Below, one piece after another: positions 113-34,103 of a stretch of 34,614 bases of DNA (its first letter is position 1; each line of letters begins with the position of its first letter). The notes under the pieces are model-generated. The model did not search any database and was not told the origin of the DNA. It saw only the letters and a list, made by a program, of their open reading frames with translations. The position numbers and the translations under genes were made by a program. The stretch comes from an uncultured bacterium (GTDB lineage Bacteria; Verrucomicrobiota; Kiritimatiellia; RFP12; UBA1067), in the NCBI GenBank assembly GCA_902769585.1, contig CACXPT010000019.1:1-34614 (forward strand). Direction: 5' to 3'.

Positions 113-183
113 TAGTGCCTAGTGCTTGGTGCCTAGTGCTTAGTGCTTGGTGCTTGGTGCTTGGTGCTTGGTGCCTGGTGCAC
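113..183. repeat. heptamer tandem array (YTRGTGC)n
   Basis: About ten direct copies of a 7-bp unit of the form C/T-T-A/G-GTGC, varying only at the first and third positions. The same heptamer recurs in five copies inside the membrane-protein gene at 19040-19074. Apparent ORFs through it are low-complexity readings of the repeat and are not annotated as genes. Confidence 0.9.
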
Positions 184-3279: not shown

Positions 3280-3470
3280 CGCGTGACCCTCCCATGCGCC
3301 GCCAAGATGGCGGCGTTCCCAGTCAGCCTCCACGCGCATGCACTGACTGGGACAGCCGCCTTCCTGGCGGGGGCATTCCCAGCCAACGGCCCGCCACCCA
3401 CAATTGGCCATTGGCAACACTGGCAACTGGCAACACTTACACATTGGCAACATTCATATTCCTCCCACTG
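3280..3470. repeat. composite palindromic repeat, copy 3 (modules swapped)
   Basis: The palindromic module (3288-3384: GCCGCCA-AGA-TGGCGGC hairpin, CCCAGTCAG and CTGACTGGG arms, GCCGCC/GGCGG) comes first, and the TTGGCAAC block (3401-3451) follows. Copies 1 and 2 have the opposite order, so the two modules behave as separable units. Confidence 0.85.
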
Positions 3471-3473
3471 CGG

Positions 3474-3535
3474 TCGCAACAAGTTGCGACCCTCCCGCGC
3501 GGACACAATGCGGTCGCGCAGGAGCGCCCCCCCGC
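3474..3535. repeat. GGTCGC...GCGACC-CTCCCG palindromes, two copies
   Basis: A perfect 9-bp hairpin, GGTCGCAAC / GTTGCGACC around AA, is followed by CTCCCG. A second, degenerate unit with GGTCGCGC, AGGA and GCGC follows within 20 bp. The same plan (arms GGWCGCGC and GCGCGWCC around RGGA, then CTCCCG) is found between genes at 34078-34103 and three times inside a gene at 19073-19175. Confidence 0.75.
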
Positions 3536-3543
3536 ACCAGCCA

Positions 3544-3578
3544 CCCACCAACCACTAACCACCAACCACTAACCACTG
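3544..3578. repeat. heptamer tandem array (AACCACY)n
   Basis: Four to five copies of AACCACT/AACCACC end 7 bp before the extended -10 of the cytochrome gene, occupying the place of its -35 element. Confidence 0.8.
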
Positions 3579-4490: not shown

Positions 4491-5379
4491 CGAAACAGCT
4501 CCACGTCCTGCCGCCTGCCGCCGTCGCAGGCGGCTGTCCGCGCGAGCAGGCGTCCGTCGCCATCGCGCAACGCGGCGCGAATGCGCAGCCGGGCGGCCAG
4601 CGGTCGGGCGGCGGCACCGTGCCTGGGATGTCGGCGAGCGGCGCGTCACGCGGCGCGTCCAGCGCCGGCACCGCCGCGAGCAGTCCCTTGGTGTAGGGAT
4701 GCCTGGGGTCGGCCAGCACGTCCACCACCGGCCCTGCCTCGACGATCTGCCCGGCGTACATCACGTTGACGAAGTCCATGCGCCCCGCCACCAGTCCGAG
4801 GTTGTGCGTGATGAGGAGCACAGCCATGCCCGTCTCGGCAGCAAGGGAGTCAATCAGCTCCAGCACCTGCTTCTGCGTCGTCACGTCAAGCGCCGTGGTC
4901 GGCTCGTCGGCCACCAGCAGGTCGGGCGAGGCGGCGAGCGCCATCGCGATCATGCAGCGCTGCTGCTGTCCGCCCGAAAGCTCGCAAGGATAGGCGCGAG
5001 CGGCGCGCTGCGGATCCGGAAGGCCGGTGCGCTCCAGCAGCTGGACGATCCGCTCGTCCTGCGCGGCGCGGTCCATCCCTTTCGGCAGCGCCTCGCGGAT
5101 CTGGTCGCGGATGCGCATCACGGGGTTGAGCGAGTCCGAAGGGTTCTGGAAGACGTAGGCGATGCGCTCCGGCGCCTTGACCGTGCCAGAGACAAAGGCG
5201 CGGTCCGTTGGCGAGAGACGCCTGAGCGACAAGGCCGTGAGCGACTTGCCGCACCCGGATTCGCCCACCAGCGCCACGCGCCCGTGCTCGGGCACCGTGA
5301 AGCTCACGTCCCGCACCGGCACGATCTCGCGGCTATCGCGGCGGAAGGCCACGCGCAGGTTCCTCACCTCAAGAAGCAT
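4477..5379 (-). CDS. OppD/DppD-like peptide ABC transporter ATP-binding protein, 300 aa
   Basis: Cytoplasmic ATPase subunit of a dipeptide/oligopeptide/nickel-type importer. Walker A GESGCGKS is at 39-46, Q-loop Q78 (VFQNP), signature LSGGQQQ at 134-140, Walker B LLVADEP at 154-160 (Glu159), and H-loop His192. The C-terminal oligopeptide/dipeptide extension (from about 225, HPYTKGLL) carries Cys265, Cys271, Cys278 and Cys295, the cysteine set typical of this subfamily. The start at 5379 has AGGAGAGCAAG; the longer frame runs back through miaA. It overlaps the miaA end by 11 bp and is last in the operon. No permease or binding protein gene lies nearby, so its partners must be elsewhere. Its stop lies within the convergent cytochrome gene. 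Confidence 0.9.
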   Translation of the reverse strand: MLLEVRNLRVAFRRDSREIVPVRDVSFTVPEHGRVALVGESGCGKSLTALSLRRLSPTDRAFVSGTVKAPERIAYVFQNPSDSLNPVMRIRDQIREALPKGMDRAAQDERIVQLLERTGLPDPQRAARAYPCELSGGQQQRCMIAMALAASPDLLVADEPTTALDVTTQKQVLELIDSLAAETGMAVLLITHNLGLVAGRMDFVNVMYAGQIVEAGPVVDVLADPRHPYTKGLLAAVPALDAPRDAPLADIPGTVPPPDRWPPGCAFAPRCAMATDACSRGQPPATAAGGRTWSCFVKGS

Positions 5380-6259
5380 CTTGCTCTCCTTCCTCTGGCA
5401 GCGACACCTGCCATGGCCCCTTTTCCTTCCATGTGCGCCACACGTTCTCCGCCGTCTCGTCGGCGGCATCGCCGACCTTCACGTACAGAGGTGTCGCCTG
5501 GTGACGGAACCAAGTGTCCTGCCGCTTGGCAAGCTGCCGCGTCCGCACCAGGATCTTTTCTTTAAGGCCAGTAAGGTCTTTAGGGTCTTTAAGGTCTTTA
5601 AAGTCTTTAACGACTTTATCTACCTTAAACTCCTTATCTACCTTATCTACCTTAAACTCCTTATCGACCCTATCTACCTTAAACTCCTTATCGACCTTAA
5701 ATTCCTTAAAGACCTTAAGCAGGGCGGCGATTTCCCTGTAGCCGATCGCCACCTGCGCCGTGTCGGACCAGACTGGATAGTCCGCCAAAAGCCGCTTCAC
5801 CTCGTCGATCCACGCGCCGCCAGCCAGCATCTCGTCGAGGCGGGCGGCGATTCGCGCGTGCAGGACGGCGCGGTCGAGCTGCAGCACGGGATAGGCCGGC
5901 GGCGGCATCGTCCACTTGCGGTCAAGCCCGCGCAGCAGCGCCGAGAAGTAGAGGCCCGTGCCGCCGACTATCACTACGGGACGTCCCGCCGGCACTTCGG
6001 CGAGCCAACGTGCTGCAGCGCGCAGCCAAGCGCCGGACGAAAAATGCTCGGCTGGTGTCACGAGGTCGATGCCGCCCATCGAGAACTCCGCTCGCTCGTC
6101 GGTCGACGGCTTTGCCGTCCCAACGTCCATGCCCTTGTACACCAGCATCGAATCCGCGCTCAGGATCGCCGCGCCCATCCGGCGCGCGAGCAGCGCGGCG
6201 GCGGCAGACTTGCCGCTCGCGGTAGGTCCGGCGAGGAGGTAGGCGTCACGCCTGACCAT
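5369..6259 (-). CDS. miaA: tRNA dimethylallyltransferase MiaA with internal repeat insertion, 296 aa
   Basis: Transfers dimethylallyl to N6 of A37 in tRNAs reading UNN codons. P-loop GPTASGKS is at 11-18, SADSMLVYKGMDVGTAKP at 34-51, GGTGLYF at 99-105, AIGYREI at 171-177 and TRQLAKRQDTWFR at 240-252; all core motifs are present. Between AIGYREI and TRQLAKRQ the family normally has a short helical linker of about 20 residues. Here residues 181-235 are a repetitive K/D/E/F/V segment encoded by 9-bp tandem repeats (5561-5720). The insertion keeps the frame, so the protein may still work. It overlaps lspA upstream by 14 bp (start 6259) and the ABC gene downstream by 11 bp. The position fits an added exposed helix; effect on activity is unknown. 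Confidence 0.93.
   Translation of the reverse strand: MVRRDAYLLAGPTASGKSAAAALLARRMGAAILSADSMLVYKGMDVGTAKPSTDERAEFSMGGIDLVTPAEHFSSGAWLRAAARWLAEVPAGRPVVIVGGTGLYFSALLRGLDRKWTMPPPAYPVLQLDRAVLHARIAARLDEMLAGGAWIDEVKRLLADYPVWSDTAQVAIGYREIAALLKVFKEFKVDKEFKVDRVDKEFKVDKVDKEFKVDKVVKDFKDLKDPKDLTGLKEKILVRTRQLAKRQDTWFRHQATPLYVKVGDAADETAENVWRTWKEKGPWQVSLPEEGEQDAS
5561..5720. repeat. 9-bp tandem repeats inside miaA
   Basis: About 15 units of 9 bp. On the plus strand they take forms such as GTCTTTAAG, TACCTTAAA, CTCCTTATC and GACCTTAAA. They are markedly AT-richer than the surrounding gene. Nine-base units preserve the reading frame whatever the copy number. Confidence 0.92.
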
Positions 6260-17528: not shown

Positions 17529-18265
17529 TTCGCTTTCCTTTCCCTGATGACTGCATTGACCGCCTCGATGTAGTCGATACGGTCCTTGCGCACGGCAATG
17601 CCGTAGTTCTCGCGCGTCTCGAGCGGCGTCACCGCCAATTCGCCGCCAGAGGCCTTCGCCACCTCCGCAAGTGCCGGACGGTCATAGAACACCGTGTCGA
17701 CCTTGTGCGCTTTCAAGGCTTTGATAGCATCCTCGATCGTCCCGTAGCGGAACGGATCTATCCCGTGCCGGGTGAGGTAGAAGTCGTGCGTCATCGACTC
17801 GACCACGCCCACGTGCCGTCCCTCGACCCGGACCATCGTCGGCATCGGCTCGCCCGAGCGGTAAAGGAACGCCGCTCCCTCCTCCGCATACGGGATAGAG
17901 AATTCCACGTTTCGGCGGCGCCCTTCCGTGATGGTGATTGCACCGACCGCAAAGTCGGCCTTGTGATCCTTTACGGAAGGAAGAAGGTCCGCAAAACGTA
18001 CCCGACGGATTTCGAGCTTGCGCCCTAGCCGTTCGGCTACGGCCTTGACTATGTCGATGTCTATGCCACACACTTCGCCAGAGTTCGTGTCGACATAGGC
18101 GTAAGGCGGCATTTCCGGCATGACCGCCAGCACAAGCGGCCCTTTCGTCCGCTCCGCCGCCACAGGTCCTGCGTCGCGGGAGTCCTTCCCGCATCCCACA
18201 AAGAGCGCCATGCCGGACAGAGCAACCACGCCCGCAATGACATTTGCCCGAACAACTTTCATCAT
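17525..18265 (-). CDS. amino-acid-type solute-binding lipoprotein (SBP_bac_3), 246 aa
   Basis: Periplasmic binding protein family 3 (polar amino acid type). The N-terminal signal has a lipobox-like FVGC with Cys25. The mature domain begins near residue 43 (GPLVLAVMPEMPPYAYVD) and has G-I-D-I-D-I-V-K-A-V-A-E-R-L, the F-A-V-G-A-I-T-I-T-E-G-R-R-R hinge and the V-G-V-V-E-S / G-T-I-E-D-A-I-K-A-L pattern of the fold. The start at 18265 (M-M) overlaps the upstream stop as ATGA, with GGAGAAAGGCAGC ahead; the downstream end also overlaps as ATGA. No ABC permease or ATPase lies next to it. The pairing with a Cache/SpoIIE phosphatase suggests a sensing rather than transport role, which is inference. Confidence 0.88.
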   Translation of the reverse strand: MMKVVRANVIAGVVALSGMALFVGCGKDSRDAGPVAAERTKGPLVLAVMPEMPPYAYVDTNSGEVCGIDIDIVKAVAERLGRKLEIRRVRFADLLPSVKDHKADFAVGAITITEGRRRNVEFSIPYAEEGAAFLYRSGEPMPTMVRVEGRHVGVVESMTHDFYLTRHGIDPFRYGTIEDAIKALKAHKVDTVFYDRPALAEVAKASGGELAVTPLETRENYGIAVRKDRIDYIEAVNAVIRERKAK

Positions 18266-20274
18266 GCTGCCTTTCTCCAAGTACGCCCGTTCAGGCATCC
18301 GCACGCCGCCCAAGCGCCGACGCCAACCGTCATGAGAACAGAGAGCAGCGTCATCGCCTGAGCCGCACGATTCGCCGACGGCTTGTCTTTCGCCGGCGCA
18401 GGCACGTTCTTCGCCTGCAGCAGCACCAGCGCCGCCGCGTTCTGCGCCGCCTTCCTGACGCCTTGCCGCGACAGGGAGTAGAAGCCCACAGGAACCAGCT
18501 CGCCTCTGCCCCAGCGTTCGTTCAACGTCTTGTCCGCTCGCAGCGTCTTCCCGGACGCGAGCACGAACCGCACGCCCTCGGCCGCCTGGTCGTCGACCGT
18601 CTCCGCAAGATGCACGCCCATGGAATCGCGCACGAGCCGTCCGCCATCCTGCGGCGGCATCGCCACGAACACCTTGCCGCCACCGGCCTTGACGACGTCC
18701 TCCGCGGCATCGTTCGGCGCCTTCTGGAACGACACGTCCTCGACCGCAAGGTACTTGCCGTCGACGCGCGCCAGGTCGATCACGTTCACGGCCGCCAGGA
18801 CGCAAAGCGCCGCTCCCACCCATGCACGCGCCGATCCAAACCGCTCATGCGCCCACGCCAAGCCGTAACCCGCCAGCACCGCCACGCAGAACTCGAGCAG
18901 GTGGACGAACTTCACCGGCGCGCGCAGGTAGTCGCCAAAAGGAAGAGCAAACACTAGCCGATAGAACGGCGTGAAGCAGCCAAGCGCGCAGAGGTAGACG
19001 ACGAGCGCTGAAATTGTCCAGAATGGGACGTCGGAGTAGCTAGTGCCTAGTGCCTGGTGCTTAGTGCTTAGTGCGGGAGGGACGCGCTCCTGCGCGTCCG
19101 CGCTTGGTGCGGGAGGGACGCGCTCCTGCGCGTCCGCGCTTGGTGCGGGAGGGACGCGCTCCTGCGCGTCCGCCTTGCGCTTCTTCCACCAGCCGACGAC
19201 GCCGACGGCGGCAAAGAGGACCGTGAGGAAACCGAAGTAGAGCGAATGCTGGCGATATGGGATCCAGATGCGTTCGCCGGGCTTCACGATCTCGCCCGTC
19301 ACCGGATGCCGCCCGCCCTGCCCAGGCGGCACAACCACCTGCTGTCCGAGCCGTCCGCGATACGGATTCTTCGGGCTCACGCGCGGATCGTTCGAGCCGC
19401 CATGCACCTCCGCCGCCACGAACTCGAGCGTGTCCTCCGGCGGCAGAGACCAGCTAGTGCAGAACTCCCAGCGCTTCTCGCGCGACACGTCGGCCTTGCC
19501 GTCGGCGGACACCAATGCGCCAGACGAATCCGCGATCTGCTTGTCGCGCCCAGCCAGGTCATGGATAAGCGCATGCCCGAACTGCGGCGCACCCGTCAGG
19601 GACACAACAGCCGCGCACACGCCAACTCCCGCGAACAGCCGTCCCCAACGGAAGTCGCCAGACTGCGCACGACCACGCCACTCTCGCACGATGCACCATA
19701 CGCCGTATGCGAACGTAAGTACCGCAAAGAGAAGCCACATGTCGGGTTGCTGAGCGCTGCTCCACGCCAGCACAGCGCCGAGCAATGCCCAGTTTCGCCA
19801 CTTCCCCTTCCGCACGCAACGATCCACCAGCCCGAACGCGAAAGGTCCGTACATGAGCCAGATGAACCATCCGAGATGCCCCGCCGAGAAGAGCGTGAAG
19901 CAGTAGCCCATCAGACCGTACGCAGCGCCGCCGCCATACGCGCCCACGAGCGGCACGCGCCGTCCGCGCAGGTAGAACACGACGCCTAGCGCCGCCAGAT
20001 AGGCCGCTAGCGCATACTGCAGTTCCTGCCAGAAGTACATGCCGCCAACAACGTGCATGAGGTCGGACGGGACAAACCGTCCGCCGGCGCACACGTCGGC
20101 GAACCACCTCGCCGCGTCGTTGATCGGATAGAATATCGCGTTGTCTGGCTCCACAGGGGCCTTGTCAAGCGCCCAGGTGCCCCAGAACACGAACGCCATG
20201 CACACGGCATACAACCCCGTGAACGCCAGGAACGCGATCGTCGAGGGCCTACGGAAAAACTCTTTTATCTTCAT
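18262..20274 (-). CDS. polytopic membrane protein with repeat-derived insert, 670 aa (YfhO/GT-C-like)
   Basis: About ten to twelve hydrophobic helices (for example 12-33, 84-101, 108-130, 134-151, 162-190, 214-229, 345-363, 417-436, 451-480, 645-662) with a first large loop beginning WALDKAP-x-E-P-D near 34-44. The general plan resembles YfhO or GT-C glycosyltransferase-like membrane proteins, but I see no decisive catalytic motif, so function is uncertain. Residues 368-413 are a foreign-looking insert: three ADAQERVPPAPS-type 12-mers, then a segment encoded by GCACTAA-type heptamers. It is placed in a loop between membrane segments and keeps the frame. Transcribed from a near-consensus promoter only about 5 nt before the ATG; its stop overlaps the SBP gene by ATGA. 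Confidence 0.75.
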   Translation of the reverse strand: MKIKEFFRRPSTIAFLAFTGLYAVCMAFVFWGTWALDKAPVEPDNAIFYPINDAARWFADVCAGGRFVPSDLMHVVGGMYFWQELQYALAAYLAALGVVFYLRGRRVPLVGAYGGGAAYGLMGYCFTLFSAGHLGWFIWLMYGPFAFGLVDRCVRKGKWRNWALLGAVLAWSSAQQPDMWLLFAVLTFAYGVWCIVREWRGRAQSGDFRWGRLFAGVGVCAAVVSLTGAPQFGHALIHDLAGRDKQIADSSGALVSADGKADVSREKRWEFCTSWSLPPEDTLEFVAAEVHGGSNDPRVSPKNPYRGRLGQQVVVPPGQGGRHPVTGEIVKPGERIWIPYRQHSLYFGFLTVLFAAVGVVGWWKKRKADAQERVPPAPSADAQERVPPAPSADAQERVPPALSTKHQALGTSYSDVPFWTISALVVYLCALGCFTPFYRLVFALPFGDYLRAPVKFVHLLEFCVAVLAGYGLAWAHERFGSARAWVGAALCVLAAVNVIDLARVDGKYLAVEDVSFQKAPNDAAEDVVKAGGGKVFVAMPPQDGGRLVRDSMGVHLAETVDDQAAEGVRFVLASGKTLRADKTLNERWGRGELVPVGFYSLSRQGVRKAAQNAAALVLLQAKNVPAPAKDKPSANRAAQAMTLLSVLMTVGVGAWAACGCLNGRTWRKAA
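19039..19175. repeat. intragenic repeat block: five heptamers plus three 36-bp palindromic units
   Basis: 19040-19074 holds five YTRGTGC heptamers, the same unit as the array at 113-183. From 19073 to about 19175 come three 36-bp direct repeats, each containing the palindrome GGACGCGC-AGGA-GCGCGTCC followed by CTCCCG on the minus strand. The palindrome matches the intergenic units at 3474-3535 and 34078-34103. 36 bp is a multiple of three, so copy-number change would keep the frame. Confidence 0.92.
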
Positions 20275-34020: not shown

Positions 34021-34103
34021 GCTCGCCGTCCGGCGGACGGCGAGCTACCGGGTTGAAGTCTCGATACCCCGTTAAGCGGTCGCGCGGGAGCGCGACCCTC
34101 CCG
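34021..34103. repeat. two intergenic palindromes between convergent genes
   Basis: First an 11-bp perfect stem GCTCGCCGTCC / GGACGGCGAGC with a 3-nt loop (34021-34045). Then an 8-bp stem GGTCGCGC / GCGCGACC around GGGA (34078-34097) followed by CTCCCG. The second belongs to the family at 3474-3535 and 19073-19175. There is no T-run, so they are not classical terminators, but they sit at the 3' ends of two convergent genes and may protect or end both messages. Confidence 0.85.

Follow-up and report, generated by a model that had tools for sequence, protein, structure and literature searches.

A palindrome family resembling REP elements, with many in-frame copies inside genes of an uncultured rumen bacterium

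Introduction

How does a gene for a polytopic membrane protein come to carry three copies of a short palindrome, in tandem and in frame, when REP-like small mobile palindromes are usually kept between genes in bacteria? The question is raised by positions 19039-19175 (minus strand) of what we call the window, a stretch of 34,614 nucleotides that constitutes contig C19 in the genome of an uncultured rumen bacterium (assembly GCA_902769585.1). A first-pass annotation, made from the letters alone, had described the palindrome as an intergenic family that colonized the gene, and had considered it a mobile or recombinogenic repeat tolerated within a loop.

Materials and methods

The genome of this bacterium, G000, comprises 4.9 Mb on 365 contigs and is 79% complete with 5% contamination. 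Most of the named relatives used for comparison are metagenome genomes from the rumen or gut, with the label Kiritimatiellae, Lentisphaerae or Verrucomicrobia. Statistics are based on 1.34 Mb of G000, in stretches mostly picked for holding copies of the palindrome (hereafter the sample), and on 0.72 Mb of the relative G003. Genes were called with a simple, crude dicodon caller of our own, and copies were regarded as strictly internal where the coding signal extended over 30 codons or more on both sides.

Results

The insert in the window gene

The insert consists of three 36-bp units, each formed by the hairpin GGACGCGC-AGGA-GCGCGTCC and the tail CTCCCG, and of five heptamers, all of them in frame; TRF, the open reading frame and the pattern search agree with the original description in this respect. 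The hairpins proper occupy 19080-19099, 19116-19135 and 19152-19171 of the minus strand. The features of the gene are:

18262..20274, minus strand: gene for a 670-residue polytopic membrane protein, host of the insert (ORF call; orthologues in 52 of 59 relatives)
19146..19171, minus strand: palindrome copy 1 in gene order, hairpin plus CTCCCG, coding for ADAQERVPPA
19110..19135, minus strand: palindrome copy 2, coding for ADAQERVPPA
19074..19099, minus strand: palindrome copy 3, coding for ADAQERVPPA
19066..19177, minus strand: 36-bp tandem unit, 3.1 copies with 97% match, palindrome plus heptamer-like spacer CACCAAGC (TRF)
19040..19074, minus strand: five heptamers (GCACTAR/GCACCAG), coding for ALSTKHQALGT together with the flank (TRF, 7-bp unit in 5 copies)

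In translation, the insert reads as ADAQERVPPAPS twice, followed by ADAQERVPPALS. Residues 373-415 are predicted, with low confidence (mean pLDDT 64), to form a coil between two helices (345-372 and 416-430). As the spacer CACCAAGC within each unit resembles one heptamer, it was probably a palindrome-plus-heptamer unit that triplicated. Substitution rates against the G014 orthologue (dN 0.11 and dS 0.67 for the N-terminal part, dN 0.22 and dS 0.78 for the C-terminal part) indicate that purifying selection acts on both sides of the insert, and this selection on the host lends indirect support to the protein being made and functional with its repeat peptide.

Twenty orthologues were aligned, of which that from G003 is cut by a contig end, its matches being split over two contigs; the insert is absent from all 19 that span the linker. 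The objection foreseen in the first-pass annotation, that distant orthologues might all carry the same repeat, thus falls away. Two orthologues, those from G005 and G014, have heptamer-like arrays of other kinds in this linker, of the AACCACG and CGCGAAC types.

Further copies of the design, and of the heptamers, were found elsewhere in the window, all but the heptamers at 3545-3576 at essentially the places first indicated:

34078..34103, plus strand: intergenic palindrome copy GGTCGCGC-GGGA-GCGCGACC CTCCCG (pattern search)
3472..3497, plus strand: intergenic variant GGTCGCAAC-AA-GTTGCGACC CTCCCG (pattern search)
3510..3535, plus strand: decayed palindrome copy (GGTCGCGCAGGAGCGCCCCCCCG) ahead of a heptamer array
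113..181, plus strand: intergenic array of heptamers (GTGCYTR)n like those of the window gene (TRF)
3545..3576, plus strand: intergenic heptamer array (CCACYAA)n (TRF)

The window also holds repeats of other kinds. Three near-identical stretches at 245-345, 840-940 and 3290-3390, containing GCGCCGCCAAGATGGCGGCG and a partner hairpin, represent another interspersed repeat, and a 9-bp-based tandem array with a 27-bp unit lies at 5559-5718 within a called gene (5369-6259, minus strand).

A dispersed palindrome with a constant tail

The palindrome is far more abundant in the genome than chance would allow, which disposes of the second objection, its absence elsewhere: hairpin and CTCCCG tail together occur 309 times in G000 against 0 for a reversed control, the exact stem with any 4-nt loop occurs 132 times against 1 for the reversed pattern, and a slightly looser rule yields 281 copies in the 1.34-Mb sample, with 0 for the control. 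The consensus unit, about 28 bp long, reads 5'-GC, an 8-bp hairpin (GGNCGC..GCGN'CC) and CTCCCG-3'; the base preceding the unit is usually C, most often as GC, stem and loop measure 8 bp and 4 nt, or 9 bp and 2 nt, and the end is CTCCCG. Stem variants change jointly on both sides, as in GGACGCGC/GCGCGTCC, GGTCGCGC/GCGCGACC, GGTCGCAA/TTGCGACC, GGACGCAA/TTGCGTCC and GGCCGCGC/GCGCGGCC. All 15 variants considered pair perfectly, with double changes at three positions; as they were picked by hand and are all perfectly paired by choice, this count shows which positions covary and is not an unbiased rate. The covariation score of the stem is 0.486, compared with 0.112 after shuffling (0/500).

Copies tend to be found close together, 203 of the 281 in the sample having another within 80 bp. 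Inverted dimers in the sample have their tails outside in 47 cases and inside in 17, and direct 36-bp spacing occurs 14 times, which makes the triplication in the window gene a recurrent form. A search of 288 genomes from the class shows a patchy occurrence of the tagged pattern: G006 has 356 copies, G000 309, G003 262, G023 233 and G119 113, while most of the remaining genomes have between 0 and a few, and the reversed control is near 0.

Copies inside genes

The label 'intergenic' proved wrong for this family. Within the sample, 222 of 281 copies (79%) lie in called genes, where random placement would give 88%; copies are thus only mildly depleted in genes. In about a quarter of G000, 195 copies are strictly internal, distributed over 92 genes, and 156 of these fall into just two of the six frames (p=8e-40): 79 are read in sense frame 2 (xDAQERVPPx) and 77 in antisense frame 1 (xGGSRSCATx), with 3 to 14 in each of the others. 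The bias persists when one random copy is drawn per gene (76 of 92) and in the GC-stem subset, whose commonest forms are stop-free in all frames. In G003, where many sites are common to G000, 64 of 77 copies are in the two preferred frames. Arginine is more frequent in the four avoided frames, which may be why they are avoided.

Hosts supported by Pfam matches include MetRS, DnaG primase, MFS transporters, LacZ, GH106, a PFL-like enzyme and a 2-oxoacid:ferredoxin oxidoreductase. In MetRS, the copy falls inside the match to the catalytic domain, and in the oxidoreductase between its domains.

Comparison with a close relative

G003 is 92.4% identical to G000 over 255 kb of aligned sequence. Forty clusters of G000 have an orthologous site in G003, which has an equal copy number in 19 cases, a different one in 14 and no copy in 7. 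At strict in-gene sites, the length is equal in 14 cases and differs in 17, and 16 of these 17 differences are multiples of three (p=2.7e-7); the sole exception, which was kept in the count, is a difference of -1367 at L120_4974 over a long span that may be wrongly paired. In the alignments, single copies are gained or lost, the hairpin type changes within one site and, at orthologous sites, the palindrome is swapped with a tandem array unrelated to it (L064 vs L172; L151 vs L088). These sites give the appearance of permissive loops in which repeats are taken up and exchanged. As many sites are common to G000 and G003, movement is not frequent. A target-site duplication, for which the first-pass annotation had proposed to look, was not clearly present in any of the G000-G003 alignments inspected. 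At one site, G003 has a CTTAAGGTC array similar to that at 5559-5718 of the window where G000 has palindromes.

Heptamer arrays

Like the STRR heptamers of cyanobacteria, the tandem arrays found here are degenerate, based on 7 bp and dispersed in the genome, but they differ in sequence, and of the 160 tandem arrays in the 1.34-Mb sample of G000 whose periods are multiples of 7 between 7 and 35 bp, 82 lie within called genes; examples are L085:7803-7901 and L090:13790-13844. We considered the heptamers as a part of the palindrome element and rejected this, because only 4 of the 160 arrays lie within 60 bp of a palindrome; they therefore constitute an independent repeat class.

RAYT-type transposases

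RAYT-type genes (Y1_Tnp) are present in all 16 genomes of the genus that were searched. Two candidates examined closely, together with a scan of the other RAYT loci for nearby family copies, yielded no clearly cognate RAYT. The RAYT on C9 lies between family copies, but another palindrome occurs in and around the gene, and this candidate was not accepted; nor was the L195-type one. The sole RAYT match in G003 has AAAACAGGTCTGACCTGTTTT-type hairpins on its flanks. L195, L206 and L208, from three species, encode RAYTs with a C-terminal extension and have hairpins related to AAAACAGGTCTGACCTGTTTT on one or both sides.

Some of these transposases are themselves embedded in other genes. In two species, uxaC (glucuronate isomerase) contains, at the same place in its middle, an in-frame Y1 transposase of the RAYT type (L139:12501-14669, minus strand, G000:C98, and L196, G014:C39), and for the G000 chimera Pfam gives UxaC in several stretches along with Y1_Tnp. 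With dN 0.090, dS 1.13 and 86% amino acid identity, the embedded RAYT is evidently under strong purifying selection. Likewise, L063:16768-18750 (plus strand, G000:C24) and L192 (G001:C409) have a Y1 transposase in frame inside nadB (FAD-binding, L-aspartate-oxidase-like), again in two species; here, dS is saturated. The RAYT or host proteins of L139, L063, L056, L065 and L094 hold other repeated peptides (GQDARCPS/ATGETPVVP, ARGAPETCGVVP, KARRSDMG and AQALPSGQWQGG), which suggests several further palindrome families inside genes. Perhaps, although we put this forward tentatively and consider it rather doubtful, there is a repeat ecology at the level of proteins, in which several palindrome families and even whole RAYT genes would persist as in-frame segments of enzymes, the transposase being a nested domain, as in uxaC and nadB, with both parts functional.

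Discussion

Origin and spread of the palindromes

The insert is very probably explained by a REP-like palindrome that inserts widely, including into genes, that is filtered by what proteins tolerate and that is subsequently amplified locally. The survivors in loops and linkers would be those copies that stay in frame and encode a peptide of low charge, DAQERVPP in sense and GGSRSCAT in antisense. In the window gene, one copy would have landed in an inter-helix linker that was already variable and carried heptamers, whereupon the palindrome-plus-heptamer unit would have triplicated through slippage or unequal recombination. We infer both this order of events and the operation of a loop filter in the other hosts. 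For the mobile or recombinogenic character that had been proposed, and for tolerance within a loop, speak the genome-wide dispersal, the lack of the insert in the 19 spanning orthologues, the variation in presence and type between close genomes and the coil predicted at low confidence. The palindrome may, with a chance somewhat short of even, have been moved by a RAYT (Y1/HUH) transposase acting in trans on single strands; such RAYT-driven spread is plausible.

Spread might have done without a transposase, through recombination or gene conversion between existing palindromes combined with slippage. This is consistent with the exchange of whole hairpin types (GGACGCGC to GGACGCAAT) at orthologous sites in closely related DNA, the swaps between palindromes and unrelated tandem repeats, the recurrence of the direct 36-bp spacing and the outcome for the RAYT candidates, none of which was clearly cognate. 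Yet it leaves the arrival at new, non-homologous sites unexplained, and the constant GC...CTCCCG ends and the orientation bias of the dimers point to a defined unit; we regard it as unlikely. More improbable still is that the peptides are functional modules, such as exposed linkers, under positive selection and not merely tolerated. The same two peptides do recur across many unrelated proteins, and many sites are common to two species, but their hosts, from MetRS, DnaG and MFS transporters to LacZ, GH106 and the PFL-like enzyme, are unrelated, orthologues of the window gene do without the insert, and the peptide is lost or replaced at orthologous sites. The metagenome-type assembly, with its completeness and contamination given above, and the matches to the window gene on two contigs of G003 might raise the suspicion of an assembly artefact or a decaying pseudogene. 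This is very improbable, given that the frame is intact with both flanks under purifying selection, that the separate assembly of G003 shows the same family and frames, and that in-gene length differences are multiples of three.

Relation to known repeats

A REP-like palindrome, as we favour it, finds its closest parallels in REP/REPIN sequences and their RAYTs (TnpA-REP). It shares with them a palindrome of about 20-40 bp with conserved pairing and a constant tag at one of its ends, hundreds of dispersed copies, Y1/HUH transposases in the genome and a predominance of inverted dimers with tails outside, which is reported for REPs (PMC3733652). Unlike REPs, which are mostly extragenic and bear GTAG or CGTC tags, the subject of PMC3733652, it has the tag CTCCCG (CGGGAG on the other strand), most of its sampled copies are intragenic, and a RAYT clearly its own was not found among the loci considered here.

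Earlier work has described REPs within genes, those of Opitutus terrae and Rickettsia among them, as well as RAYTs that contain in-frame REPs (PMC3733652, PMC6006769 and PMC10969869). The GTAG REPs of O. terrae (PMC3733652) also belong to a verrucomicrobial lineage and occur in genes as singles and dimers coding for short peptides; they have another tag and sequence, whereas intragenic copies are the majority here and show a strong bias towards two frames. The Rickettsia RPE, going by its description in PMC10969869, is likewise a palindrome inserted in frame into unrelated genes, giving a recurrent peptide, and a preferred frame is found in our family as well; with about 150 bp, it is set apart by that description from the units of about 28 bp, often clustered, seen here. 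The portions of the open-access literature available to us gave no description of the CTCCCG tag or of such an intragenic density, which is not proof of novelty.

With its tag outside the GTAG and CGTC types, this palindrome family is patchily abundant across the class. Its copies in 92 genes, with known frames and a site-by-site comparison to a close relative, constitute a dense natural experiment on the tolerance of proteins to insertions, and they make the mode by which such repeats move directly testable.
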